Of a DNA stretch of 64,000 nucleotides, positions 1,118 through 61,547 are shown one piece after another. The notes beneath the pieces are model-generated. The model had not been told where the DNA came from. It searched no databases and worked only from the letters and a program-made list of their open reading frames with translations. The position numbers and the translations under genes were made by a program. The stretch is from Ignavibacteriota bacterium (GTDB lineage Bacteria > Bacteroidota > Ignavibacteria > SZUA-365), in contig JACRFB010000024.1 in assembly GCA_016218045.1 (NCBI GenBank), forward strand, positions 1 to 64,000, given 5' to 3'. How positions within the stretch are numbered: position 1 is the first letter of the stretch; every line of letters begins with the position of its first letter.

Positions 1118-1785
1118 CGATCTGCCGCTGGTCTCGAGGGTCGTAGCTCCTAACACTCGTGTGAGGATATGGGAGAGCGGGAGAGCGGGACAGCGGGAGC
1201 GGAACAACGAAATAGTGTCTCGCTGAGCGGAGTCGAAGCGCGACGGGACAGCGGGAGAGCGGGACAGCGGGAGAGCGGGACAGCGGGAGCGGAACAACGA
1301 AATAGTGTCTCGCTGAGCGGAGTCGAAGCGCGACGGGACAGCGGGAGCGGAACAACGAAATAGTGTCTCGCTGAGCGGAGTCGAAGCGCGACGGGACAGC
1401 GGGACAGCGGGACAGCGGGACAGCGGGAGCGGAACAACGAAATAGTGTCTCGCTGAGCGGAGTCGAAGCGCGACGGGACAGCGGGACAGCGGGAGCGGAA
1501 CAACGAAATAGTGTCTCGCTGAGCGGAGTCGAAGCGCGACGGGACAGCGGGACAGCGGGAGAGCGGGACAGCGGGACGGATTAGTTGGATGCAATCCGTA
1601 TTATACGCGTGTTCCTTGTGAGACATCTCGTGGTCTCCTCTTCTCCCGGTCGCATTTCTCTGCCCCTCAGCGTTCTCCTATATCCTAGCTCCTGTATCCT
1701 ACCTCCTGAAAAACGTATCCTATCTCCTTCAAGACTCGGAACCGATCCCGCGACTTTGCATCCACGAACTGACCGACACAGAAAC
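1118..1785. repeat. Intergenic array: five copies of a 52-bp core with 8-bp linkers
   Basis: After a GTGTGAGG motif near 1160, five near-identical copies of a core of about 52 bp start near 1198, 1288, 1346, 1428 and 1494. The core begins GCGGAACAACGAAATAG and contains TCTCGCTGAGCGGAGTCGAA. Copies are separated by variable numbers of GGGACAGC / GGGAGAGC 8-mers. The core half GTCTCGCT...AGCGCGAC can pair at 7 of 8 positions around a 12-nt loop, like a REP element. The array ends near 1580. From 1580 to 1785 there are pyrimidine-rich TATCCTxxCTCCT runs and no gene. Long open frames through the array on both strands are simple repeat translations. Confidence 0.85.
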
Positions 1786-4749: not shown

Positions 4750-4887
4750 CGGCTGAATGCAAGTTTACCGGTCGGCTGAACGCTAGTTCAGGTGTCGGCT
4801 GAATGCTAGTTCATGTGTCGGCTGAATGCTAGTTCATGCGTCGGCTGAATGCTAGTTCACGCGTCGGCTGAATAAAAGTTCATGCGT
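4750..4887. repeat. 23-bp tandem array, six units
   Basis: Units start at 4750, 4773, 4796, 4819, 4842 and 4865, exactly 23 bp apart, with a partial seventh at 4888. The consensus is CGGCTGAATGCTAGTTCA followed by five variable bases (often TGTGT or TGCGT). Each unit has a small dyad, TGAA-TGCTAG-TTCA. The array lies directly upstream of the minus-strand ATPase gene and about 220 bp upstream of the plus-strand secreted-protein gene, so it could be a multi-site operator for either. There is no repeat-spacer alternation, so it is not a CRISPR. From 4888 to about 5050 nothing recognisable is seen. Confidence 0.9.
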
Positions 4888-5055
4888 CGGTGACAGACGG
4901 GCGTACAGGCCGGTTGTTGATGTATTCGGCGTCGAGCGGGTGCCGGCAACTGTCGGCATCACAGCCATAGGTCATTGATCGAGCAGCGTCGCGCACCCCG
5001 CGCACACGCGGCCCGCATACAACACGTGATACGTGGGGAACGATGAATTCCACTT

Positions 5056-12605: not shown

Positions 12606-12718
12606 CCTCACGCTCGTGTGAGGAGGAAGGAGACAGGATTCAGGAGACACGGCTCGATCCAGTTTCTTTCTCCTGTCTCCTATTTCCTGTATCCTCACGC
12701 TCGTGTGAGGAGGAAGGC
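12606..12718. repeat. Composite intergenic repeat with two palindromic cores
   Basis: The 18-bp palindrome CCTCACGCTCGTGTGAGG occurs at 12606-12623 and again at 12693-12710. Between them are AGGAGACAGGA-type and TCCTGTCTCC-type runs in opposite orientations, so the whole unit can fold into a large branched hairpin. It fills the gap between the DUF190 gene and waaA. Confidence 0.85.
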
Positions 12719-16729: not shown

Positions 16730-17060
16730 GTGGGCTCCGCACGCTCCCGTAAGGACACAGGAGACAGGAAACAGGAGACTGATCTTGACTGGAAGGCCTC
16801 CTGCCTCCTGTATCCTGTCTCCTCACGCTCGTGTTAGGAGACAGGAGGAAGGAGTCAGGAGACACGGCCCGAATCAGTGCCTGCCTCCTGTAGCCTGGAT
16901 CCTCACACTCCCGTAAGGACACAGGAGACAGATCCTGACTCGAAGGCCTCCTGCCTCCTGTATCCTGTCTCCTCACGCGGACAGAGTAGACCGATCTACC
17001 CAACTACCATCTACCAACTACCATCTACTCATCTACCACGAATCCACCCCCGGAATCCCC
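16730..17060. repeat. Intergenic composite repeat (GGAGACAG arrays and TACCATC array)
   Basis: From about 16752 to 16985 there are alternating GGAGACAGGA and TCCTGTCTCC runs around palindromic cores (CCTCACGCTCGTGTTAGG at 16821-16838, a variant near 16910). From 16996 to 17041 there is a CTACCATCTACCAACTACC array, the reverse complement of the GTAGATGG arrays after the DPP-IV and heptosyltransferase genes. No gene is seen. Confidence 0.85.
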
Positions 17061-17645: not shown

Positions 17646-19850
17646 ATGTCCCTGTTCCGCCGTTCCCTTCTCCACACCGCGCTGCTCTGCGCGCTCCCCG
17701 CCCTGCTGCTTGTCGCGCAGAAGAAACCCGTCACCTTGTCGGACGCGTTCATGAACCGCGACCTTGCGGGTGGAGGACGCGGCGGCGGATATACCTGGCT
17801 GAAAAACGGGACGCAGTACTCGATCACCAAACGTGATTCGGGGGCGATGTCGCAGAGTATCTACGCCGTGGACGCGGAGACGGGCAAGGAGGCGAAACTC
17901 GTGGATTTGTCGGGGCTGAAAAAACCCGGCAAAGATTCACCGTTCACGTTCCAGAGTTATTCGTGGAGTCCCGACCAGACCAAACTCGTCTTCACTCTTT
18001 CGGTGAAGCGGCTCTGGCGCCGATCGACACTGGGTGAATACGCGGTGTACGATATCGCGTCGAAAAAACTCACCGTGCTGCCTAAACACGGCGACGGCCT
18101 GCGCAACGTGAAGGTGTCGCCCGACGGCGCATGGGTGGGGTACGTGGCCGCCGACAATATCTGGGTGATGAACCTCGCGAGCGGCGAGGAGACCCAGCTC
18201 ACCAACGACGCGCAGGAGAACGTGTACAACGGCCGCTTCGGCTGGGTGTACGAAGAGGAATTCAGCATCACCGACGGCTGGCAGTGGTCGCCTGATTCGA
18301 AACGTATCGCGTTCTGGCAGGAGGATGAGCGCGGGGTCCCCGAGTACAAGATGACGGATTGGACATCGCTGCATCTCGAGTTTGTGCCGATCCGCTACCC
18401 GAAACCGGGCGACGCGAATCCGATCGAAAAAATCGGCGTGATAGATGTCGCATCCCGCGCGCGCACGTGGATGGATCTCGGTTCGGAGACCGACATCTAC
18501 GTTCCGCGCATCATGTGGACGCAGGATCCCGCAACACTCTGCATCTACCGCCTCAATCGTCTGCAGAATCATCTGGAACTGCTTTTCGCGGACGCCGCCA
18601 CGGGCAAGTCCCGCGTCGTGCTCGAGGAAAAATCGGCGACGGGATGGATCGACATCGAAAACTTCGGCTACCTCAAGTTTCTCACCAAAAAGAAGCAGTT
18701 TATCTGGAATTCAGAACGCGACGGGTGGAATCACGCGTACCTGTTCAACACCGACGGCACACTTGTGAACCAGATCACCAAAGGCGCCTTCGAAATCACT
18801 CAGATCGCGGGCCTTTCGCCGGATGAAAAGGTGCTGTACTACGTGTCGACGGAAGTGTCGCCGCTGGAGCGTCACCTGTACTCGATCCGGCTTGACGGCG
18901 GAAAGAAGAAAAAACTGAGCGTCGAGGCGGGCTCGCACTCGTTCTCGATGAGTCCCACCTGCGCGCTGTACAGCGATGCATGGTCGAGCATCGACGCGCC
19001 GTCGAAGGCCGTGATGCGCAACATCGACGGCGAGGAGCTGCGCGTGATCAGCGAGGCCAAACGCGAGACCTTCGCCGCGTACCGCTGGTCGCAGAAGGAG
19101 CTGTTCACGGTGAAGACGGCCGACGGTCTCGAGCTGCAGTGCTCGATGCTGAAGCCGCCGGACTTCGATCCGGCCAAGAAGTACCCCGTGTATTTCGACG
19201 TGTACGGCGGACCCGGCACGCAGGCCGTGCGCAATGCGTGGCCCGGCGCGATGCATCAGTACATCGCAAACGAGGGTTTCATCGTGGTGCAGTGCGACAA
19301 CCGCGGCAGCAGCGGACGCGGCACGGATTTCAAACACCGCGTGTATAAACAGCTCGGCAAGTGGGAGGCGAACGATTACGTCGAGACCGCGAAGTATCTC
19401 TCGGCCCTGCCCTTCGTCGATGCGCGCAACATCGTGATCTGGGGCTGGAGCTACGGCGGTTACATGGCGGCTCTGACCATGTTGCTCGGGGCGGACCATT
19501 TCAGCGCGGGTGTGGCCGTCGCGCCTGTCACGGATTGGAAGTTCTACGACACGATCTACGCCGAGCGGTTTATGCAGCGCCCTGCCGACAATCCCGACGG
19601 TTACAAGGCGGGTTCCTGTCTCGAGCATGCGAAGCTCCTGAAGGGCAAGCTCTATCTCATTCATGGAGGCATGGACGACAATGTGCACCTGCAGAATATG
19701 ATGCAGTTTGTGGACCGCCTCCATCAGGCCAACAAGAACTATGAGTTGCGTATCTATCCCCGTGGGGATCACGGGGTCGCCGACGGCGGCACGACGATGG
19801 GGTTGTATGAGTCGTTTATGTCGTTCTTCCGGAAGGTGTTGGTGCAGTAG
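17646..19850 (+). CDS. S9B dipeptidyl peptidase IV-like serine peptidase
   Basis: 734 residues, secreted (signal peptide RSLLHTALLCALPALLLVAQ). The first 500 or so residues form a beta-propeller (DPP_IV_N), including the GWVYEEEFSITDGW segment whose Glu pair in this family binds the substrate N-terminus. The C-terminal alpha/beta hydrolase carries the nucleophile Ser602 in GWSYGGYM, the acid in the MDDNVHLQN motif (677-678) and the base His709 in RGDHGVADG. This predicts release of N-terminal Xaa-Pro or Xaa-Ala dipeptides in the periplasm. The TAG stop codon is the first unit of a GTAGTTGGTAGATGG array. Confidence 0.92.
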   Translation: MSLFRRSLLHTALLCALPALLLVAQKKPVTLSDAFMNRDLAGGGRGGGYTWLKNGTQYSITKRDSGAMSQSIYAVDAETGKEAKLVDLSGLKKPGKDSPFTFQSYSWSPDQTKLVFTLSVKRLWRRSTLGEYAVYDIASKKLTVLPKHGDGLRNVKVSPDGAWVGYVAADNIWVMNLASGEETQLTNDAQENVYNGRFGWVYEEEFSITDGWQWSPDSKRIAFWQEDERGVPEYKMTDWTSLHLEFVPIRYPKPGDANPIEKIGVIDVASRARTWMDLGSETDIYVPRIMWTQDPATLCIYRLNRLQNHLELLFADAATGKSRVVLEEKSATGWIDIENFGYLKFLTKKKQFIWNSERDGWNHAYLFNTDGTLVNQITKGAFEITQIAGLSPDEKVLYYVSTEVSPLERHLYSIRLDGGKKKKLSVEAGSHSFSMSPTCALYSDAWSSIDAPSKAVMRNIDGEELRVISEAKRETFAAYRWSQKELFTVKTADGLELQCSMLKPPDFDPAKKYPVYFDVYGGPGTQAVRNAWPGAMHQYIANEGFIVVQCDNRGSSGRGTDFKHRVYKQLGKWEANDYVETAKYLSALPFVDARNIVIWGWSYGGYMAALTMLLGADHFSAGVAVAPVTDWKFYDTIYAERFMQRPADNPDGYKAGSCLEHAKLLKGKLYLIHGGMDDNVHLQNMMQFVDRLHQANKNYELRIYPRGDHGVADGGTTMGLYESFMSFFRKVLVQ

Positions 19851-20222
19851 TTGGTAGATGGTAGTTGGGTAGGCCGATCTATTCAAATCGTGTGAGGAGA
19901 CAGGAGACAGGATACAGGAGACAGGCACTGATTCGGCCCCTGTCTCCTGACTCCTTCCTCCTGACTCCTCACGCGACTGTGAGGAGACAGGATACTGGAG
20001 ACAGGCACTGATTCGGCCCCTGTCTCCTGACTCCTTCCTCCTGACTCCTAACGCGAGTGTGAGGAGACAGGATACTGGAGACAGGAGACATGCACTGATT
20101 CGGCCCCTGTCTCCTGACTCCTTCCTCCTGACTCCTGACGCGAGTGTGAGGAGACAGGATACTGGAGACATGCACTGATTCGGCCCCTGTCTCCTGACTC
20201 CTTCCTCCTGACTCCTGACGCG
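19848..20222. repeat. Composite repeat: TAG array, core palindrome and four long units
   Basis: A GTAGTTGGTAGATGG run begins on the stop codon of the peptidase gene. After GATCTATTC, four units of about 80-87 bp start near 19892, 19979, 20059 and 20145. Each contains GTGAGGAGACAGGATAC, a CACTGATTCGGCC loop and CTGTCTCCTGACTCC. GGAGACAGG and CCTGTCTCC within a unit can pair into a hairpin. Unit junctions carry CCTCACGCGACTGTGAGG-type palindromes. The next gene is convergent. From 20223 to 20263 nothing is seen. Confidence 0.88.
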
Positions 20223-20263: not shown

Positions 20264-20294
20264 AAAAAAAAAGGGACCCGAAGGTCCCTTTTTT
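20264..20294 (-). terminator. Intrinsic terminator of the TonB receptor gene
   Basis: On the minus strand GGGACC-TTCG-GGTCCC forms a stem with the very stable UUCG tetraloop, followed by nine T residues and preceded by six A residues. It lies 14 bp after the stop of the receptor gene and is the most canonical terminator in the window. Confidence 0.93.
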
Positions 20295-20307
20295 CATGAC
20301 GGCCGGA

Positions 20308-27562: not shown

Positions 27563-28606
27563 ATGATAAAGCGCGTGAAGTCCGACATATCTAAAACACT
27601 CGTTTTGCGCCTGAGTTCCATCGGCGATATTCTGCTCGCAACGCCCTTTTTGCGCGCATTACGCCGGTCCTATCCACACGCGCGTATCGACGTCGCCGTC
27701 CGCGCGGAATACGCCGATCTACTGCGCCACCACCCCGCTGTCTCGGTATTACACGAGATCGATGTGCGCGAGGGGCGCGCAGGTCTTGCACGATGGAGGC
27801 GCCGCTTCCGCGAGGAGCGCTACGACACGGTCTTCGACCTGCATAATGTGCTACGCACGCGCCTGCTGCGACGGGGCATCGCGCCGCGTGTGCGCGTGCT
27901 GCGGAAGTATTCGCTGCGCCGCGCCCTGCTGGTCCGCGCGGGCATCAATCTGCTCGCGGCGGCCCCGTCCGTGCCCGAGCGCTATATCGCCTGCGCCGCC
28001 GCGGATGGACTCGAGCCGGACGATCGCGGTCCCGAGATCTTTCTGCCTGCGAAACTCGAAGAGGAACTGCGGCGAAGGGTCCTGCCGGAGGATGCCGGGA
28101 ATGCCCGGCTGATCGGCATCTGTCCCGGAGCGCGGCATACGACCAAACGCTGGCCTCTCGAACACTTCGAGGAATTGTGCCGTCTGCTTCTGCATGTGCC
28201 CGGCGCGCGTATCGCCGTGTTCGGCGGTGCGGATGACAGGGATGCCGGCGAAACTCTTGCGCGGCTCGATCCCGCGTCCGTCCACAATTACTGCGGCGCG
28301 CTGACTCTGCTCGAGACCGCGGCCGCGATGCGGTCGTGCGACGTGGCCGTAACCAACGACAGCGGGTTGATGCACATGGCGTGCGCGTGCGCCGTGCCCG
28401 TGGTTGCGCTGTTCGGCAGCACCGTGCGCGAATTCGGATTTTTTCCGTATCAGAGTGCGTCCGTTGTGCTTGAGACGTCCGGCCTTCGCTGCCGGCCGTG
28501 TACACATGTTGGTCGCTCTGATTGTCCGCGCGGGCATTTCCGGTGTATGCGGGATATTCATCCGCAGGATGTGGTTTCTGCCGTTCGTGGGTTTCTGCTC
28601 GAGTAG
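27563..28606 (+). CDS. ADP-heptose:LPS heptosyltransferase (glycosyltransferase family 9)
   Basis: 347 residues. VLRLSSIGDILLATPFLRALRR at the N-terminus is the GT9 acceptor-domain signature. GICPGARHTTKRWPLEHF, the VFGGADDRD nucleotide-binding turn and the VTNDSGLMHMACACAVPVVALFG block with TVREFGF are all present, as in WaaF/WaaC/RfaQ. A Cys cluster near the end (LRCRPCTHVGRSDCPRGHFRC) is a normal feature of GT9. It transfers heptose to LPS inner core or another glycan; which step is not certain. The TAG stop starts a GTAGATGG array. Confidence 0.88.
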   Translation: MIKRVKSDISKTLVLRLSSIGDILLATPFLRALRRSYPHARIDVAVRAEYADLLRHHPAVSVLHEIDVREGRAGLARWRRRFREERYDTVFDLHNVLRTRLLRRGIAPRVRVLRKYSLRRALLVRAGINLLAAAPSVPERYIACAAADGLEPDDRGPEIFLPAKLEEELRRRVLPEDAGNARLIGICPGARHTTKRWPLEHFEELCRLLLHVPGARIAVFGGADDRDAGETLARLDPASVHNYCGALTLLETAAAMRSCDVAVTNDSGLMHMACACAVPVVALFGSTVREFGFFPYQSASVVLETSGLRCRPCTHVGRSDCPRGHFRCMRDIHPQDVVSAVRGFLLE

Positions 28607-28980
28607 GTGGTAGATGGTAGATGGGTAGATGGTAGTTGGTAGATTGTAGTTGGTAGATGGGTAGGTTGATCTGCTGTATTCGTGTGAGGAGACAGGATAC
28701 AGGAGGCAGGAGGCTGCGTTATTCTCTCGCTCCGGTTTCTGTCGGGTTCTCGTATATCCGGTCTCCTAACTCCTAGATCCTGTCTCCTGCCTCCTGCCTC
28801 CTGCCTCCTGTCTCCTGTCTCCTGACGCAAAACGTACAGGACCAGCGGCGCGTTGTTTCTGAAGAACCTCTCTTTGAAGAGGTACGTTTGTTCAGTCCCC
28901 TACTTTCGCCTAATTTAAAGACTGACAATTCCTCCATTACCCCCGAAGAAATCCCCCACCATAGCGCCGGAGTACCTGCA
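28604..28980. repeat. Composite repeat after the heptosyltransferase gene
   Basis: From the TAG stop codon, GTAGGTGGTAGATGG-type units run to about 28665. GGTTGATCTGCTGTATTC, CGTGTGAGG and GGAGACAGGA units follow, then the reverse-complement CTCCTGCCTCCTG run to about 28828. This is the same module order as at 58975. From 28829 to 28980 there is a small hairpin (ACCTCT-CTTTGA-AGAGGT, 28866-28883) and ordinary upstream DNA of maeB. Confidence 0.85.
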
Positions 28981-31245
28981 ATGAAAATCAGAAAAGAAGA
29001 TGCCCTCGAGTACCATAGCATGGGCCGAAAGGGCAAGATCGAGGTTGTGACGACAAAGCCCTGCGTGACGCAGCGCGACCTGTCGCTCGCGTACACGCCC
29101 GGCGTGGCCGAACCGTGCCGCGAGATACACAAGAACGACGACCTGGTCTTCGAATACACGGCAAAGGGGAATCTCGTCGCGGTGATCTCGAACGGCACCG
29201 CGGTGCTGGGACTGGGCGACATCGGTCCGCACGCCGGCAAGCCGGTGATGGAGGGCAAGGGCGTCCTCTTCAAAACCTTCGCCGACATCGACGTGTTCGA
29301 CATCGAACTCGACTCGAAGGACGTGCAGGAAATCATTCGTGTGTGCCAGGTGCTCGAACCGACCTTCGGCGGCATCAACCTCGAGGACATCAAGGGGCCG
29401 GAGTGTTTCTACATCGAGCAGGAATTGAAGCGCACGATGAAGATTCCGGTGTTCCACGACGATCAGCACGGCACGGCCATCATCAGCGGCGCGGCGCTGA
29501 TCAACGCGGTGGAAATCGTCGGCAAAAAACTCGACGAAGTGAAAGTGGTGTTCAACGGAGCCGGCGCCTCGGGTATCGCCTGCGCCACCTTCCACATCTC
29601 GCTCGGCGTGAAGAAGGAAAACGTGACGCTCTGCGATACAAAGGGTGTGATCTACAAGGGCCGCACCGAACACATGAACGAATTCAAGGAGGACTTCGCG
29701 ATCGAGACCTCGGCGCGCACACTGGCCGATGCGCTGGTGGGCGCCGATGTGTTCGTGGGTCTGTCGTCGGGCAACATGGTGACTCCCGACATGGTGCGTT
29801 CCATGGCCCCGAATCCGATCATCTTCGCGATGGCGAATCCCGATCCGGAAATCACCTACGAGGATGCGATCGGCGCGCGTCCCGACATCATCATGGCGAC
29901 CGGACGCTCCGACTATCCGAATCAGGTCAACAACGTGCTCGGCTTCCCCTTCATCTTCCGCGGCGCGCTCGATGTGCAGGCCACCGCGATCAACGAGGAG
30001 ATGAAGCAGGCCGCTTCGTACGCGCTCGCGTCGCTCGCGAAGGAGGACGTGCCCGAGAGTGTGAAACGCGCTTACGGCGTGACCGAAATGGCCTTCGGAC
30101 GCGAGTACATCATTCCGAAGCCCTTCGATCCGCGCGTGCTCACATACGTGGCCCCCGCGGTCGCCAAGGCGGCGATGGACACCGGCGTCGCGCGCAGGCC
30201 GATCGAGGACTTCGACGCGTACAAACATCAGCTCGACATACGCATGGGCCGTTCGCAGGTGATCATGACGCCGATCTACGACAAGGCCAGCAAATCACCC
30301 AAACGTGTCGTGCTGCCCGAGGGCGATCAGCCGCGTGTCATCAAGGCCGCGCAGCTCGCGGTGGACGAGGGCATCGCCCATCCGATCCTGCTCGGCAACG
30401 CCGACATCATCCGCGGCATCGCCGACGAACACGGGTACGATCTCACGGGCGTCGAGATTGTCGATCCGAAAAAACACGAGAAGTCCGACTCGTACATCGA
30501 GGCCTTCTACAAGCTGCGCCAGCGCAAGGGAGTGACGCGCTACTATGCGCGTCGCGACCTGCTTTCGCTCAAGAACTACTACGGCGCCATGATGCTGCAT
30601 CAGGGCGACGCCGACGGCATGCTCTCGGGCTACACCTCGCACTATCCCGACACCGTGCGTCCGGCGCTGCAGATCATCGGCCGCGATCCGCGGTACAAGG
30701 TGGTCTCGGGCCTCTACGTGCTCGCCTTCAAGAAGCAGGCCTTCCTGCTCGCCGACACGACCGTCAACATCGATCCCACGCCCGAGGCGCTGGCCGACAT
30801 CGCGTGCCAGACGGCTGAATTCGCTGCCAACTTCGACATCGTTCCGCGCGTCGCGATGTTGTCGTACAGCAACTTCGGCTCGAATCTCGAGGCCTCCCCC
30901 CGCAAGGTGCGCCAGGCCCTCGAGATCGTCCAGCAGCGCTGCCCCGACCTCATGGTCGACGGCGAGATGCAGGCCGACACCGCCGTGGTACCCGACATCA
31001 TCAACGAGACCTTCCCCTTCTCGACACTGAAGGGCGGCGCCAACGTGCTCATCTTCCCCGACCTCAACGCGGGCAACATCGCCTACAAGCTGCTCGCCCG
31101 CATCGGCGGCGCGAATCCCATCGGTCCCATCCTGCTCGGCATGGGCAAGGCGGTACACGTGCTGCAGCGGGGCTCGGACGTGAAGGAGATTCTCGACATG
31201 ATCGCCATTACCGTCGCGGATGCCATTCGTAAAGAAGGATTGTAG
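28981..31245 (+). CDS. maeB: NADP-dependent malic enzyme fused to a phosphotransacetylase-like domain
   Basis: 754 residues from the ATG at 28981; an upstream in-frame start adds 31 residues without family similarity. The malic enzyme part (about 1-400) decarboxylates malate to pyruvate: [24 protein letters not shown] with the metal-binding Asp pair, [14 protein letters not shown] as Rossmann nucleotide site and [11 protein letters not shown]. The C-terminal part (about 415-750) is a phosphotransacetylase-like domain ([36 protein letters not shown]). As in MaeB of Escherichia coli, this domain normally serves oligomerisation and acetyl-CoA sensing rather than catalysis. The TAG stop begins a GTAGACG array. 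Confidence 0.95.
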
Positions 31246-31354
31246 ACGGAAGACGTGAGACGGTAGACGGTAGACGGTAGACGTGAGACGGTAGACGTGA
31301 GACGGTAGACGTGAGACGGTAGACGTGAGACGGTAGACGTGAGACGGTAGACGT
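31243..31354. repeat. GTAGACG / GTGAGACG array starting on the maeB stop codon
   Basis: TAGACGG and TGAGACGG units alternate, giving a 14-bp higher-order period (AGACGTGAGACGGT) repeated about six times. The first TAG is the maeB stop codon, and TAG and TGA recur in shifting frames along the array. It ends directly at the maeB terminator. Confidence 0.9.
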
Positions 31355-31385
31355 GAAGGCGCGGCGAATCAGCCGCGCCTTCTTA
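31355..31385 (+). terminator. Intrinsic terminator of maeB
   Basis: A perfect 11-bp stem GAAGGCGCGGC / GCCGCGCCTTC with a 6-nt loop (31355-31382) is followed by TTACTTTC. It lies at the end of the GTAGACG array after maeB. Confidence 0.8.
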
Positions 31386-33159: not shown

Positions 33160-33262
33160 ATTTGTGTCAGGATACAGGAGACAGCATACAGGAGCCACGA
33201 TGAGGACACTGTGTCTGCCTGACTCCTGACTCCTATCTCCTGACTCCTGACGCGCACGTGAG
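33160..33262. repeat. GGAGACAG / CTCCTGACTCC composite repeat
   Basis: GGATACAGGAGACAGCATACAGGAG runs (read in parts) on one side and CTCCTGACTCCTATCTCCTG on the other flank a GCGCACGTGAGG core near 33252. It is a short member of the same intergenic family, located between the convergent bPH2 and pruA genes. Confidence 0.8.
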
Positions 33263-41628: not shown

Positions 41629-42666
41629 TCACTCGAAATCGTGCTCGAGCCAGTCGATCATGGGATCCGACTGCTCCTCGGCCTCCGCTTTTTTCTCGAG
41701 AATGGTCTGCAGGCGCCGCGAGAACTCGAGGGCCGAGTCCTGGCCGTAATGTTTGAGCAGGTAATTCAGGGCGATCACTTCCGAGATGACGGTCACATTC
41801 TTGCCGGGGAAAATGGGCAGCCGCACATGCGGCACCATGACGCCGAGTATGTCGACCTCTTCCGAATCGAGTCCGGTGCGCGTGTACTCGGCCGTGTCGC
41901 TCCAGTCCTCGAGCTGCACCACCACCTCGATGCGCTTCTGGAAGCGGATGGCGCGGATGCCGAAGATGCTGCGGATGTCGATGAGGCCGAGGCCGCGCAC
42001 CTCCATGAAGTGTTTCACGAGCGACGAGCCCGCGCCCATGAGAATACCCTCGCCCTTTCGAATGGCCATGACAACATCGTCGGCCACGAGACGGTGGCCG
42101 CGTTCGACGAGGTCGAGCGCGATTTCGCTTTTCCCGATGCCCGAGCGTCCGACAAAAAGAACGCCGATGCCGTACACGTCGATAAACGCGCCGTGTATGA
42201 CCGTCTTCGGCGCAAAATGGTCGTCGAGGAAATCGCCGACAAAATACACGGCCTTGGTAGTCTCGTGCCGTGTCGTGAACACGGGCACCTCGTGTGAGGT
42301 GGCGATGGCCAGAAGCGAATCTTCGAGCATGTTCCCCGCGGTGACGATGATGCAGGGTATCTTGAACTGGAAGAGACGTTCGAACGCGACAAGCTGTTCG
42401 TCGGGCGGCAGCGTGCGTAGATAGTGGATTTCGGTGTTGCCCATCACCTGCACGCGGTGATACGTAAAAAGTTCGACGTAGCCCGCCAGGGCGAGTCCGG
42501 GCCTGTGCAGATTCTTGTCGGTGATCTCGCGCTCGCTGCGCTCGAGTCCGTTGGCCGAGACAAGGCCGAGACGTGTGCGGTTCTTCTCGAAGAGCTGCCG
42601 CACGGTGATCGGTTTTCGCGGAAGCTCCTTGAGATCCGCGAACGGATTTTCTGTGTTGTATTTCAT
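41629..42666 (-). CDS. hprK: HPr kinase/phosphorylase
   Basis: 345 residues from the ATG at 42666; further in-frame upstream sequence overlaps hpf in another frame and is spurious. HprK phosphorylates HPr on Ser in response to ATP and fructose-bisphosphate and reverses this with phosphate. The N-terminal domain (about 1-135) is followed by Walker A GRSGIGKS at 173-180, the RLVADD segment, VRGLGLIDIRSIFG (the HprK signature that binds HPr) and a C-terminal helix with many Glu. No PTS gene lies nearby. A terminator-like hairpin with a T-run lies 21-44 bp before the start codon. Confidence 0.92.
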   Translation of the reverse strand: MKYNTENPFADLKELPRKPITVRQLFEKNRTRLGLVSANGLERSEREITDKNLHRPGLALAGYVELFTYHRVQVMGNTEIHYLRTLPPDEQLVAFERLFQFKIPCIIVTAGNMLEDSLLAIATSHEVPVFTTRHETTKAVYFVGDFLDDHFAPKTVIHGAFIDVYGIGVLFVGRSGIGKSEIALDLVERGHRLVADDVVMAIRKGEGILMGAGSSLVKHFMEVRGLGLIDIRSIFGIRAIRFQKRIEVVVQLEDWSDTAEYTRTGLDSEEVDILGVMVPHVRLPIFPGKNVTVISEVIALNYLLKHYGQDSALEFSRRLQTILEKKAEAEEQSDPMIDWLEHDFE

Positions 42667-58920: not shown

Positions 58921-59768
58921 TCGAATGTATCGCCAGGGCTGGGAGTGGAGGTGGTAGCGGGTTAGAGAGTAGATGGGTAGAGGGTAGATTGATCAACTCT
59001 ATCCGTGTGAGGAGACAGGAGACAGGATGCGGGAGACGAGAGACGGGAGACGGGAGACGAGAGACGGGAGACGAGAGACGGGAGACGAGAGGCGACTGAA
59101 CACCCATAAAATCGGATTACCCCCTCTTTTTAAGAGGGCGAAGGGGGAGTGGGCTGCAGGATGAGCATTGAATGCGACGTGATCCTCCCGTTGCCGATCC
59201 CCACGCCTCACGGCGTGGGTTGATGAATGCCGCCCGCTTCGCGGGCTCTGCGGACTCTTAAGGCGATGAGACGATCAGACGATCAGACGATTAGACGATC
59301 AGACGATCAGACGATCAGACGATCAGACGATCAGACGATCAGACGATTGGACGATTAGACGATTAGACGATCAGACGATCAGACGATCAGACGATTAGAC
59401 GATTGGACGATTAGACGATAAAGCGACACAGCGGTCCGATTCTCTCCGCGATCCATGCGGCGTGTGCGTGAGTCGCGAATCACATCCGACAGGGGCGACC
59501 GGCGGTCGCCCTACACCACCACGGAACACGCACAAAACACAGCCCGGAACAGATCAGTCACCCTTTCCCGGAACGGGGAGTGGGACGGGGTGAGGGTGCG
59601 TATGCCGCCCGCTTCGCGGGCTCTCTGCGATTTGGGGCCGCGCCGATACACCGCGCGCCCCAGCCCGATATTCCTCCTGTCTCCTCTATCCTGTCTCCTC
59701 ACACCGAATAGAATAGACCACACTCCCCCAGCCCCCAACTCCCACATCTAGATCCTAACCCCTAACTC
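58921..59768. repeat. Repeat zone holding several distinct repeat families
   Basis: No gene is supported in these 848 bp. Contents in order: GTAGATGGGTAGAGG run, TTGATCAACTCTATC, CGTGTGAGG core and GGGAGACGAGAGAC array (58960-59098); a CCCCCTCTTTTTAAGAGGGC element (59119-59150); a CCCACGCC-TCAC-GGCGTGGG hairpin (59200-59219); GCCCGC-TTC-GCGGGC (59232-59246); the AGACGATC array (59269-59420); GGGCGACC-GGC-GGTCGCCC (59493-59511); a CCCGGAACGGGGAGTGGGACGG-like element (59570-59597); a second GCCGCCCGCTTCGCGGGCTCT (59605-59625); and TCCTGTCTCCTC with AACTCCTAGCTCCT runs to 59768. Several of these look like REP-type elements. Confidence 0.8.
59269..59420. repeat. 8-bp tandem array AGACGATC, 19 units
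   Basis: Nineteen consecutive 8-bp units (AGACGATC, AGACGATT or GGACGATT, ending AGACGATA) run without a gap in phase. Most units carry a GATC site. The length is likely to vary between strains. No open reading frame of interest crosses it. Confidence 0.92.
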
Positions 59769-61547
59769 CTAGCTCCTCGTAACCAGCTCCTGATCCTTGT
59801 ACTGCAGCATATACAGCCGCTTGTAGATTCCGTCGGCGGCGAGGAGTTCCTGATGTGTTCCCTTCTCGCGGAGCTGCCCCTTGTGCATCACGATGATCTT
59901 ATCGGCGTTCTGAATAGTGGAGAGCCGGTGCGCGATAACGATGGATGTGCGGCCCGAAAGCAGCCGCGATATGGCCTCCTGAATCAACTGCTCCGATTCG
60001 GTGTCGACGCTCGAGGTGGCCTCGTCGAGAATGAGGATCGACGGATCGTAGGCCAGCGCGCGCGCAAAGGCCAGCAGTTGCTTCTGGCCGACCGACAGTG
60101 TCGCTCCACGCTCCTTCACCTCGGTGGCATAGCCGTCGGGCAGCCGCTCGATGAAGCGGTCGATGCCGACGAGCCGGGCCACCTCGCGGACGCGTTCGTC
60201 GCTGATGCGCTCGTCGCCCAGTGTGATGTTGCCGCGTATGTCGCCCGAGAAAAGGAACACGTCCTGCAGCACCACGCCTATCGCACGGCGCAATTGCCGC
60301 GACGACACCGACCGTATGTCCACACCGCCGATGAGAATGCTTCCGTGCTGAATGTCGTAGAGGCGTCCGAGGAGATTGATGATGGTGGATTTTCCCGCGC
60401 CCGTCGCGCCCACGATGGCCACGGTTTTGCCCGCCGGAATCGTGAAGGAGACGTCGCGCAGGACCCAGTCCTCGCCGTTGTACGCAAAACGCACATTGCG
60501 GAATTCTATGCCGGCGCGCGGATCAAATCCGGCGGCCTCCTCGGGCGGTTCGGGGATGACGGAATCGTCGTCGAGCAGCGTGAAGATGCGTTCGGACGAG
60601 GCCATCGCGGTCTGCATGATGTTGTATTTCTCCGACAGATCACGCACGGGCCGGAAGAACATTTCGGTGTACTGGATGAAGGAGATCAGCGTGCCGAGTG
60701 TCATCACGCCGCCGATCACTCCCCCGCCCGCGTACCAGACGATGAGCGCCACCGCGAGCGAACTGAGGAAATCCACCGCCGGGAAAAACACGGCGTAATA
60801 AAAAACCGACTTCACGTGTGAATGCGTGTGCGCGGCGTTGATCGCCTCGTGTTTCTTGTACGCGTCGTTCTCGCGCCCGAAGAGCTGCACCGTGGCCATG
60901 CCCGACACGTGCTCCTGCGTGAAGCTGTTGAGCCGCGCCACCTGGAAACGGATGTCGCGATACGAGTCGCGCACCTTGCGCCGGAAGAGCAGCGTGGCAT
61001 ACATCAGCAGAGGCAGCACGCTGAGTGTCACGAGCGAGAGGCCCCAGTCGATGGTGAACATAAACACCATGATCCAGATGATGATGAACACGTCGGCGAA
61101 CACGGTCACGAGTCCCGACGAGAACATCTCGTTCAACACCTCGACGTCGCCGGTGACACGCGTGACGAGACGGCCGACCGGATTCTTGTCGAAAAAGGAC
61201 AGGGACATCCGCTGAAGCTTGCGGTACACCTGCATGCGTATGTCGAGGATGGTCCGTTGCCCGATCCACTGCGTGAAGTAGGTCATGACATACTGCACGA
61301 GACCCTGGAAGATCAGCGTCGCGAGCAGGAGCAGCGCGATGCGCAGCAGTCCCGCCGCGTCCTTGTTCGCGATATAGTCGTCGACGGCGATTTTTGTGAG
61401 CCAGGGGCGGACGGGTCCGAGCGCGGAGATGAGGATGGTGAGCAGGATCGCGCCCGCGATGTGCCACCGATAGGGACGCACGTATATCAGCAGCCGCTTC
61501 ATCAGCCGGCTGTCGTATGCTTTGCCGAGTATTTCGTCTTCTTGCAT
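59769..61547 (-). CDS. ABC exporter, fused TMD-NBD (MsbA/multidrug type)
   Basis: 592 residues from the ATG at 61547 (a GTG 42 bp upstream gives a longer form). It is a half-transporter with six helices (about 20-310) and a nucleotide-binding domain: Walker A GATGAGKST, Q-loop GVVLQDVFLFSGDI, ABC signature LSVGQKQLLAFAR (Val replaces the usual second Gly of LSGGQ), Walker B ILILDEATSS and a switch His in AHRLS. It probably acts as a homodimer, or as a heterodimer with another half. Substrate unknown; lipid A or drugs are typical. Its TAG stop codon begins a GAGTTAGGGGTTAGG run. Divergent from the activator gene. Confidence 0.88.
   Translation of the reverse strand: MQEDEILGKAYDSRLMKRLLIYVRPYRWHIAGAILLTILISALGPVRPWLTKIAVDDYIANKDAAGLLRIALLLLATLIFQGLVQYVMTYFTQWIGQRTILDIRMQVYRKLQRMSLSFFDKNPVGRLVTRVTGDVEVLNEMFSSGLVTVFADVFIIIWIMVFMFTIDWGLSLVTLSVLPLLMYATLLFRRKVRDSYRDIRFQVARLNSFTQEHVSGMATVQLFGRENDAYKKHEAINAAHTHSHVKSVFYYAVFFPAVDFLSSLAVALIVWYAGGGVIGGVMTLGTLISFIQYTEMFFRPVRDLSEKYNIMQTAMASSERIFTLLDDDSVIPEPPEEAAGFDPRAGIEFRNVRFAYNGEDWVLRDVSFTIPAGKTVAIVGATGAGKSTIINLLGRLYDIQHGSILIGGVDIRSVSSRQLRRAIGVVLQDVFLFSGDIRGNITLGDERISDERVREVARLVGIDRFIERLPDGYATEVKERGATLSVGQKQLLAFARALAYDPSILILDEATSSVDTESEQLIQEAISRLLSGRTSIVIAHRLSTIQNADKIIVMHKGQLREKGTHQELLAADGIYKRLYMLQYKDQELVTRS

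Follow-up and report, generated by a model that had tools for sequence, protein, structure and literature searches.

Tandem heptanucleotide repeats of the STRR type occur in the cyanobacterium Calothrix, and we know of no nested palindrome formed by them. Intergenic heptamer repeats of the GGGNATC type have been described in Xanthomonas and Nostoc (Rehm et al. 2015, PMC4692102), and the G-rich heptamers of these genera form G-quadruplexes in vitro (PMC4692102). Repeats of the heptamer TAACTGA are distributed among the Beggiatoaceae, the Cyanobacteria, and some Bacteroidetes (MacGregor 2015, PMC4679880). REP sequences, in turn, are palindromes of 20 to 40 bp with stems of 6 to 13 bp and an unpaired GTAG/CGTC foot (PMC3733652, PMC6006769, PMC2817692). 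Accounts of heptamer arrays and of intergenic palindromes are usually separate; in the genome analyzed here the two make up one object with a fixed, mirror-image order.

The sequence under study, referred to as the window, is a 64,000-nt stretch (positions 1 to 64,000 of JACRFB010000024.1, forward strand) from the genome of an Ignavibacteriota bacterium (GCA_016218045.1), which has a size of 4.77 Mb in 72 contigs and was used for genome-wide motif counts. Totals of units and clusters were obtained from regions retrieved around matches, so that these totals are minima. Gap and stop-codon counts rely on genes called with a hexamer-based caller. A match to the T9SS sorting domain, weak and just below the cut-off, hints at the Bacteroidota or a closely related group.

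Hairpin units, junctions, and module order

Folding and alignment of copies identified the basic unit as an imperfect hairpin of 82 or 85 nt with GYGTGAGG feet and arms of AGGANNC heptamers. From 5' to 3', it consists of GYGTGAGG, AGGAGAC or AGGATAC heptamers, a loop, heptamers of the opposite strand, and a CCTCACRC end; its arms are imperfect and at least about 28 nt long. In the aligned copies, the loop sequences are related between loci, around TTGATTCGAA, and the two arms differ at fixed positions, the left arm reading GTGTGAGGAGACAGGATACAGGAGACAG and the reverse-complemented right arm GCGTGAGGATACAGGAGGAAGGAGACAG; loops and fixed mismatches shared between copies indicate common descent. 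Unit length varies by steps of seven and is 1 or 5 modulo 7 in 112 of 135 units, mostly 85, 82, or 78 nt. Period 7 and its multiple 14 lead the periodicity of the window, in which period 8 is also high. The covariance model (CM) contained only 9 base pairs, because the heptamer registers defeat RNAalifold, and served mainly as a sequence profile.

Adjacent hairpins are separated by exactly 2 nt in 57 of 75 neighboring pairs. The 18-bp palindrome CCTCACGCTCGTGTGAGG, which the first-pass annotation had taken for the constant core of a repeat family, is formed at such hairpin-hairpin junctions by a right foot, 2 nt, and a left foot. A self-standing 18-bp palindrome was therefore rejected; the family is real and far above chance, but its core had been read at the wrong register, at the junction of two abutting hairpins and not at the unit. 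In the window, CGTGTGAGG occurs 8 times, compared with a mean of 0.62 and a maximum of 3 in shuffled sequences; six of these copies belong to elements, and the remaining two, at 42291 and 58344, fall within called genes. When up to 3 mismatches were allowed, CCTCACGCTCGTGTGAGG gave 10 matches in the window (0.09 expected), and with up to 2 mismatches GTGAGGAGACAGGA gave 34 (0.38 expected). The elements of the window are as follows.

19848..19873, + strand: TAG-heptamer array (TAGTTGG/TAGATGG), read from the sequence
19874..19888, + strand: link from TAG array to hairpin foot, CCGATCTATTCAAAT; family form YGGTCTACTCTRTCC
19890..19974, + strand: hairpin unit 1, 85 nt, with foot GTGTGAGG and AGGANNC arms (CM, 93.4 bits)
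19967..19984, no strand: junction palindrome of units 1 and 2, the first-pass form of the core with 3 mismatches
19977..20054, + strand: hairpin unit 2, 78 nt (CM, 84.3 bits)
20057..20141, + strand: hairpin unit 3, 85 nt (CM, 93 bits)
20144..20221, + strand: hairpin unit 4, 78 nt (CM, 84.3 bits)
12616..12700, - strand: single hairpin unit without TAG array (CM), with junction palindromes at 12606-12623 and 12693-12710
16747..16978, - strand: three tandem hairpin units, 16747-16828, 16831-16908, and 16911-16978 (CM)
16979..17038, - strand: mirror-image link (GGACAGAGTAGACC) and CTAC array, the reverse complement of the TAG array
28604..28680, + strand: TAG array and link, the array starting at the stop codon of the GT9 gene (27563-28606)
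28682..28828, + strand: hairpin unit whose loop is enlarged and whose right arm is extended (CM), in a gap whose ortholog lacks the element in 10 family genomes
33164..33253, + strand: single hairpin unit, 90 nt, without TAG array (CM)
58968..59098, + strand: half element with TAG array, link, foot (59004-59012), and left-arm heptamers only
59675..59768, - strand: mirror half element with TCCTGTCTCC heptamers, CCTCACAC foot, and link, its TAG heptamers ending at the stop codon of the gene at 59769-61547 (-)
1149..1166, + strand: isolated foot/junction (CCTAACACTCGTGTGAGG) beside a different octamer array

These members had initially been listed as equals. Those at 19848-20222 and 28604-28828 show TAG array, link, and hairpin, and the others are partial or mirrored: the member at 16752-17041 is the mirror form of the composite, that at 33160-33262 has no TAG array, and that at 1140-1580 has a foot only, followed by an unrelated CGGGACAG octamer array.

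Further repeats are present in the window. The CGGGACAG octamers are interleaved with a 58-bp repeat (GGAGCGGAACAACGAAATAGTGTCTCGCTGAGCGGAGTCGAAGCGCGAC) at 1171-1580 and 124-185, and a 23-bp tandem repeat in six copies lies in a divergent-gene gap at 4750-4890. A AGACGGTAGACGTG array at 31243-31356, with period 14 and another heptamer (TAGACGG), runs from the TAG stop of the malic enzyme gene. An octamer array of CGATCAGA/CGATTAGA is found at 59264-59419, in region L138 from 10323, and on contig C46 near 31050, and these loci adjoin elements or REP-like hairpins.

Across the genome, a TAGATGG/TAGTTGG array adjoins the hairpins in 40 of 58 clusters, the chance of a TAG array in a random 110-bp window being 0.9%. 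In 39 of the 40 clusters with arrays, TAG (top strand) stands only on the left and CTAC only on the right; the sole exception has TAG arrays on both sides, and the reversed order was found in no cluster. The link between TAG array and hairpin foot is GGTCTACTCTRTCC. All 10 genome copies of the link sequence GGTCTACTCTRTYC adjoin hairpin units, and the same holds for at least 15 of the 17 copies of GTAGAYCRATCTAC. With TAG arrays in sense orientation at its left flank and as reverse complements at its right, the complete composite forms a single nested palindrome. One such composite, on contig C22 (L144), spans the interval from stop codon to stop codon of two convergent genes, and the fold of this whole gap has a z of -9.5. 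The fixed module order that had been proposed from the window is confirmed, and is stronger than claimed, but it is mirror-symmetric; neither a core at chance level nor unordered modules were found, and the family is not refuted. A polarity this regular could have a specific process or function behind it.

Gene ends, stop codons, and a possible role in RNA or DNA structure

The clusters occupy 20 convergent, 22 tandem, and 12 divergent gaps, whereas the remaining gaps of 50 bp or longer in these regions number 12, 60, and 33, respectively; because the regions were chosen around elements, only the comparison of gap types is informative. The median gap measures 361, 409, and 605 bp with an element and 203, 99, and 210 bp without one (convergent, tandem, and divergent). 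The median distance from an element is about 60 nt to a gene 3' end and about 130 nt to a 5' end, which would fit DNA that is tolerated at a distance from promoters. The suggested location at gene 3' ends is thus a preference, and the distribution over the three gap types shows that it is not a rule.

Gene ends that face a TAG array have a TAG stop in 20 of 27 cases, compared with 39 of 179 other genes (22%; P = 2e-7) and with 7 of 30 element-facing ends that lack an array (P = 2e-4). At window 19848, the S9 peptidase gene (17646-19850) terminates with the first TAG of the array, and in a wider array scan 10 of 40 arrays facing a 3' end likewise start with the stop codon itself. As 7 modulo 3 is 1, three TAG heptamers (21 nt) provide a stop in each frame, and because period 7 puts a stop in every frame, TAG arrays can reach up to or into a gene end. 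The excess of TAG stops could arise either from arrays that invade gene ends and supply the stop or from arrays seeded at TAG stops. The arrays are about equally common facing 5' ends (28 of 65 versus 17 of 46; P = 0.56), and the idea that they mark 3' ends only was rejected. The stop-codon register offers a concrete route by which non-coding repeats could reshape gene ends.

Hairpins in such positions could act in RNA, as bidirectional terminators or 3'-end stabilizers, and both the very stable fold (z of -10) and the overrepresentation of convergent gaps (20 of 54, versus 12 of the 105 remaining gaps of 50 bp or longer) are in line with such a role. However, 12 clusters lie in divergent gaps, no T-tract stands beside the focal hairpins, and at six sides the T-runs of ordinary GC-hairpin terminators are located between gene and element. 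Complementarity of the arms was 0.704 within an element and 0.720 for arms swapped between elements, with the same result when the test was rerun with oriented units, and RNAalifold yielded no compensatory pair. A terminator or other RNA element was rejected on the lack of co-variation, the missing focal T-tract, and the divergent gaps, and we consider it very unlikely, although the same evidence leaves room for a weak effect on neighboring transcripts. A terminator scan of the focal gap reported no terminator-like site, but the scan was not exhaustive, since a visible GGGACC..GGTCCC hairpin with a T-run at about 20264-20296 went unreported. No Rfam family except a tRNA was matched in the window.

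Selection of the elements as DNA-structure or protein-binding sites (nucleoid, gyrase, or triplex/quadruplex-like) would accord with their purine-rich strand asymmetry, with their hairpin potential, and with the in vitro G-quadruplexes of the Xanthomonas and Nostoc heptamers (PMC4692102). The heptamers here, in contrast, have GG and not GGG runs: AGGAGAC, TAGATGG, and TAGTTGG contain GG runs only and do not provide four or more G-tracts of at least three G. The elements are also spread strongly unevenly along the genome, and the element is missing from one orthologous gap in ten related genomes, so that it is not a conserved site there. Such a selected role appears highly improbable.

Spread of the family and a proposed mode of copying

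At minimum, about 135 units in 58 clusters are present in the retrieved regions of this genome; region L167, with one more full composite, exemplifies why the number is a lower bound. In the whole genome, there are 21 copies of CGTGTGAGGAGACAGGA and 35 of CGYGTGAGGAGACAGGA, the reversed control pattern of the latter being absent. The exact core and CGYGTGAGGAGACAGGA were missing from 118 relatives, including 11 members of the same family. A search of 84,980 species genomes returned 7 matches to the core, and viral contigs a further 5, none of them being this composite; plasmids and phages gave no match. Relatives have the same hairpin design with other heptamers (AGGAAGC, AGGACAT, and AGTACGC); the AGGANNN hairpin pattern was detected in 15 of 119 class genomes, with 192 instances here and at most 10 elsewhere, and genome G006 has one hairpin with unrelated heptamers. 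Near a core match in a member of another phylum (Anaerolineae, L043), there is a different heptamer hairpin, GGAGATTGGAGATT..AATCTCCAATCTC. The repeat family is real and highly ordered, and so far it is found in one genome.

Unit comparisons show tandem multiplication of copies, with the closest copies nearby. For 69 of the 108 units in multi-unit clusters, the nearest relative lies in the same cluster, and the nearest relative outside the own cluster is within 20 kb for 29 of 125 units, compared with 2.3 expected. On contig C24, a composite of about 436 bp recurs three times between 97.9 and 98.9 kb. This 436-bp composite (L140 3530-4310; C24 near 98.0-98.8 kb) also contains an inverted repeat, CTTCTTTCTTTTGTC..GACACAAAAGAAAGAAG, that belongs to a separate repeat family. 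Five contigs (C20, C44, C60, C41, and C46) have ends in or near hairpin arrays, and arrays at several contig ends are good candidate strain markers.

In 10 family genomes, the GT9 and malic enzyme genes are separated by an orthologous gap of 94 to 229 bp without the element, compared with 281 bp with an element here. The empty gaps, all in other genera, do not align, and no target duplication could be defined. A "mobile or templated repeat," as first proposed, is therefore supported as a dispersed family by its copy number, its homologous loops, and the orthologous site that is empty in relatives; mobility in the sense of a transposon is not supported, given the ragged array ends and the lack of a definable target duplication. 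Neither a transposon with the same ends nor a transposase with the link as its end was found, as all 10 copies of the link adjoin hairpin units.

The composite might instead be a REP/REPIN-like non-autonomous element mobilized by its own RAYT (TnpA-REP, HUH-Y1), for example, the one encoded at C46:36065-36400. Whether a RAYT-type transposase is encoded elsewhere in the genome had been raised as a question, and four Y1_Tnp genes are above the cut-off. Two of these (alignment A3) have DHLH/DHVH and YxxxQxxHH motifs, which are the published hallmark of TnpA-Y1 subclass 1.2, a subclass without known REPs (PMC6006769). The C46 gene, which has HUH and Y motifs, is the one of the four that stands between two element clusters, its immediate flanks being other hairpins; a cassette 5 kb away (C46:30101) has these elements and flanking hairpins but lacks the gene, the cassette repeats have GCGTGAGGAGA in common with the element foot, and the TAG arrays resemble the GTAG foot of REPs. 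Nevertheless, in this genome and several others of the class, Y1 genes are directly flanked mostly by a different type of repeat, short GC-rich hairpins, and the density of heptamer arrays is not raised near these genes (0.97 versus 2.67 per 1000 bases). Y1 genes occur in 9 of 15 hairpin-positive and 57 of 104 hairpin-negative class genomes (P = 0.79), nearly all family genomes have Y1 genes yet few or no such hairpins, and unit size and foot are unlike those of REPs. A RAYT-type gene is thus present, with one copy among the elements, but without association across the 119 class genomes; a RAYT as driver was rejected on this ground, and we regard it as unlikely. What the RAYT mobilizes is probably the GC-rich hairpins, and its location amid the elements probably reflects a shared tolerance of the region.

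Within C46:35445-37047 (L022/L139 of genome G000), the RAYT-type gene is flanked by CCCACGCCGTGAGGCGTGGG and GCCCCGGAGGGGC hairpins and by heptamer elements, and the second copy of the cassette, without this gene, extends over C46:30101-31060. REP-like hairpins of the same kind (CCCACGCCTCACGGCGTGGG and GCCCGCTTCGCGGGC) are located at window 59196-59257. In class relatives (L185-L189), Y1 genes stand among GC-rich palindromes such as CCCAGGGCGTTGCCCTGGG, although subclass 1.2 has been published as REP-free. The RAYT protein had no sequence match among solved structures.

The elements probably represent DNA that spreads itself or has grown by slippage, and not an RNA device. We give about an even chance to lineage-specific intergenic repeat DNA that is grown by slippage and copied locally via host replication and recombination. 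Homologous loops and links at unlinked loci require a real copying process, for which slippage alone is insufficient. In the copying mechanism that we infer, single-stranded DNA at the replication fork would allow the palindromes to form hairpins, at which heptamers and units would be gained or lost by slippage and template switching; elements would be copied into neighboring gaps by ectopic recombination or template switching, and selection would only exclude them from coding sequence and promoters. Neither a dedicated enzyme nor an RNA function would be required.

A broader and rather improbable extension is that the heptamer arrays of many bacteria are the arms of gap-filling palindromes produced by one general, enzyme-independent process of fold-back and slippage. 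Symmetrical growth from the gap center toward the gene edges would explain the inward-reading strand rule, also in Xanthomonas and Nostoc, and TAG heptamers would be favored because their arrays can enter gene ends while supplying a stop in any frame. The strand rule of heptamer arrays elsewhere might thus stem from a palindromic origin.

Comparison with heptamer repeats and REP elements

The elements have tandem heptanucleotides in a bacterial genome in common with the Calothrix STRR sequences, and as 7-nt tandem repeats in intergenic positions at many loci they are intergenic heptamer repeats of the SSR/STRR type. Like REPs, REPINs, and BIMEs, they are clustered intergenic palindromes in many convergent and tandem gaps of a genome with RAYT-type genes. 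In contrast to REPs, however, their units measure 82 to 85 nt, with imperfect heptamer arms and a GYGTGAGG foot; GTAG occurs only in the outer array, in 40 of 58 clusters, and not as a REP foot. Dispersal and the lack of coding sequence are shared with MITEs; the nested palindrome may correspond to their inverted repeat ends, but it ends in variable arrays without sharp limits, and no target duplication could be defined from empty sites in other genera.

The TAACTGA repeats are likewise intergenic heptamer direct repeats with a patchy distribution and, in some genomes, a mixture of heptamers. They are found mostly just upstream of start codons in forward orientation, essentially without inverted repeats (PMC4679880), whereas the elements here have other heptamers and lie at a median of about 130 nt from gene starts. 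The repeats of Xanthomonas and Nostoc have the period of 7, the intergenic position, the high copy number, and the variable copy number in common with the elements, and their class also shares with the TAG arrays the inward-reading strand rule near gene edges and the overlap with stop codons (PMC4692102). Those repeats are single arrays of one G-quadruplex-capable heptamer (PMC4692102), whereas here several heptamers in a set order form the arms of a nested palindrome, with GG runs only and with homologous loops and links. On the best reading, the element belongs with the intergenic heptamer repeats of Xanthomonas, Nostoc, and the Beggiatoaceae rather than with REPs and is of a kind only partly described before.
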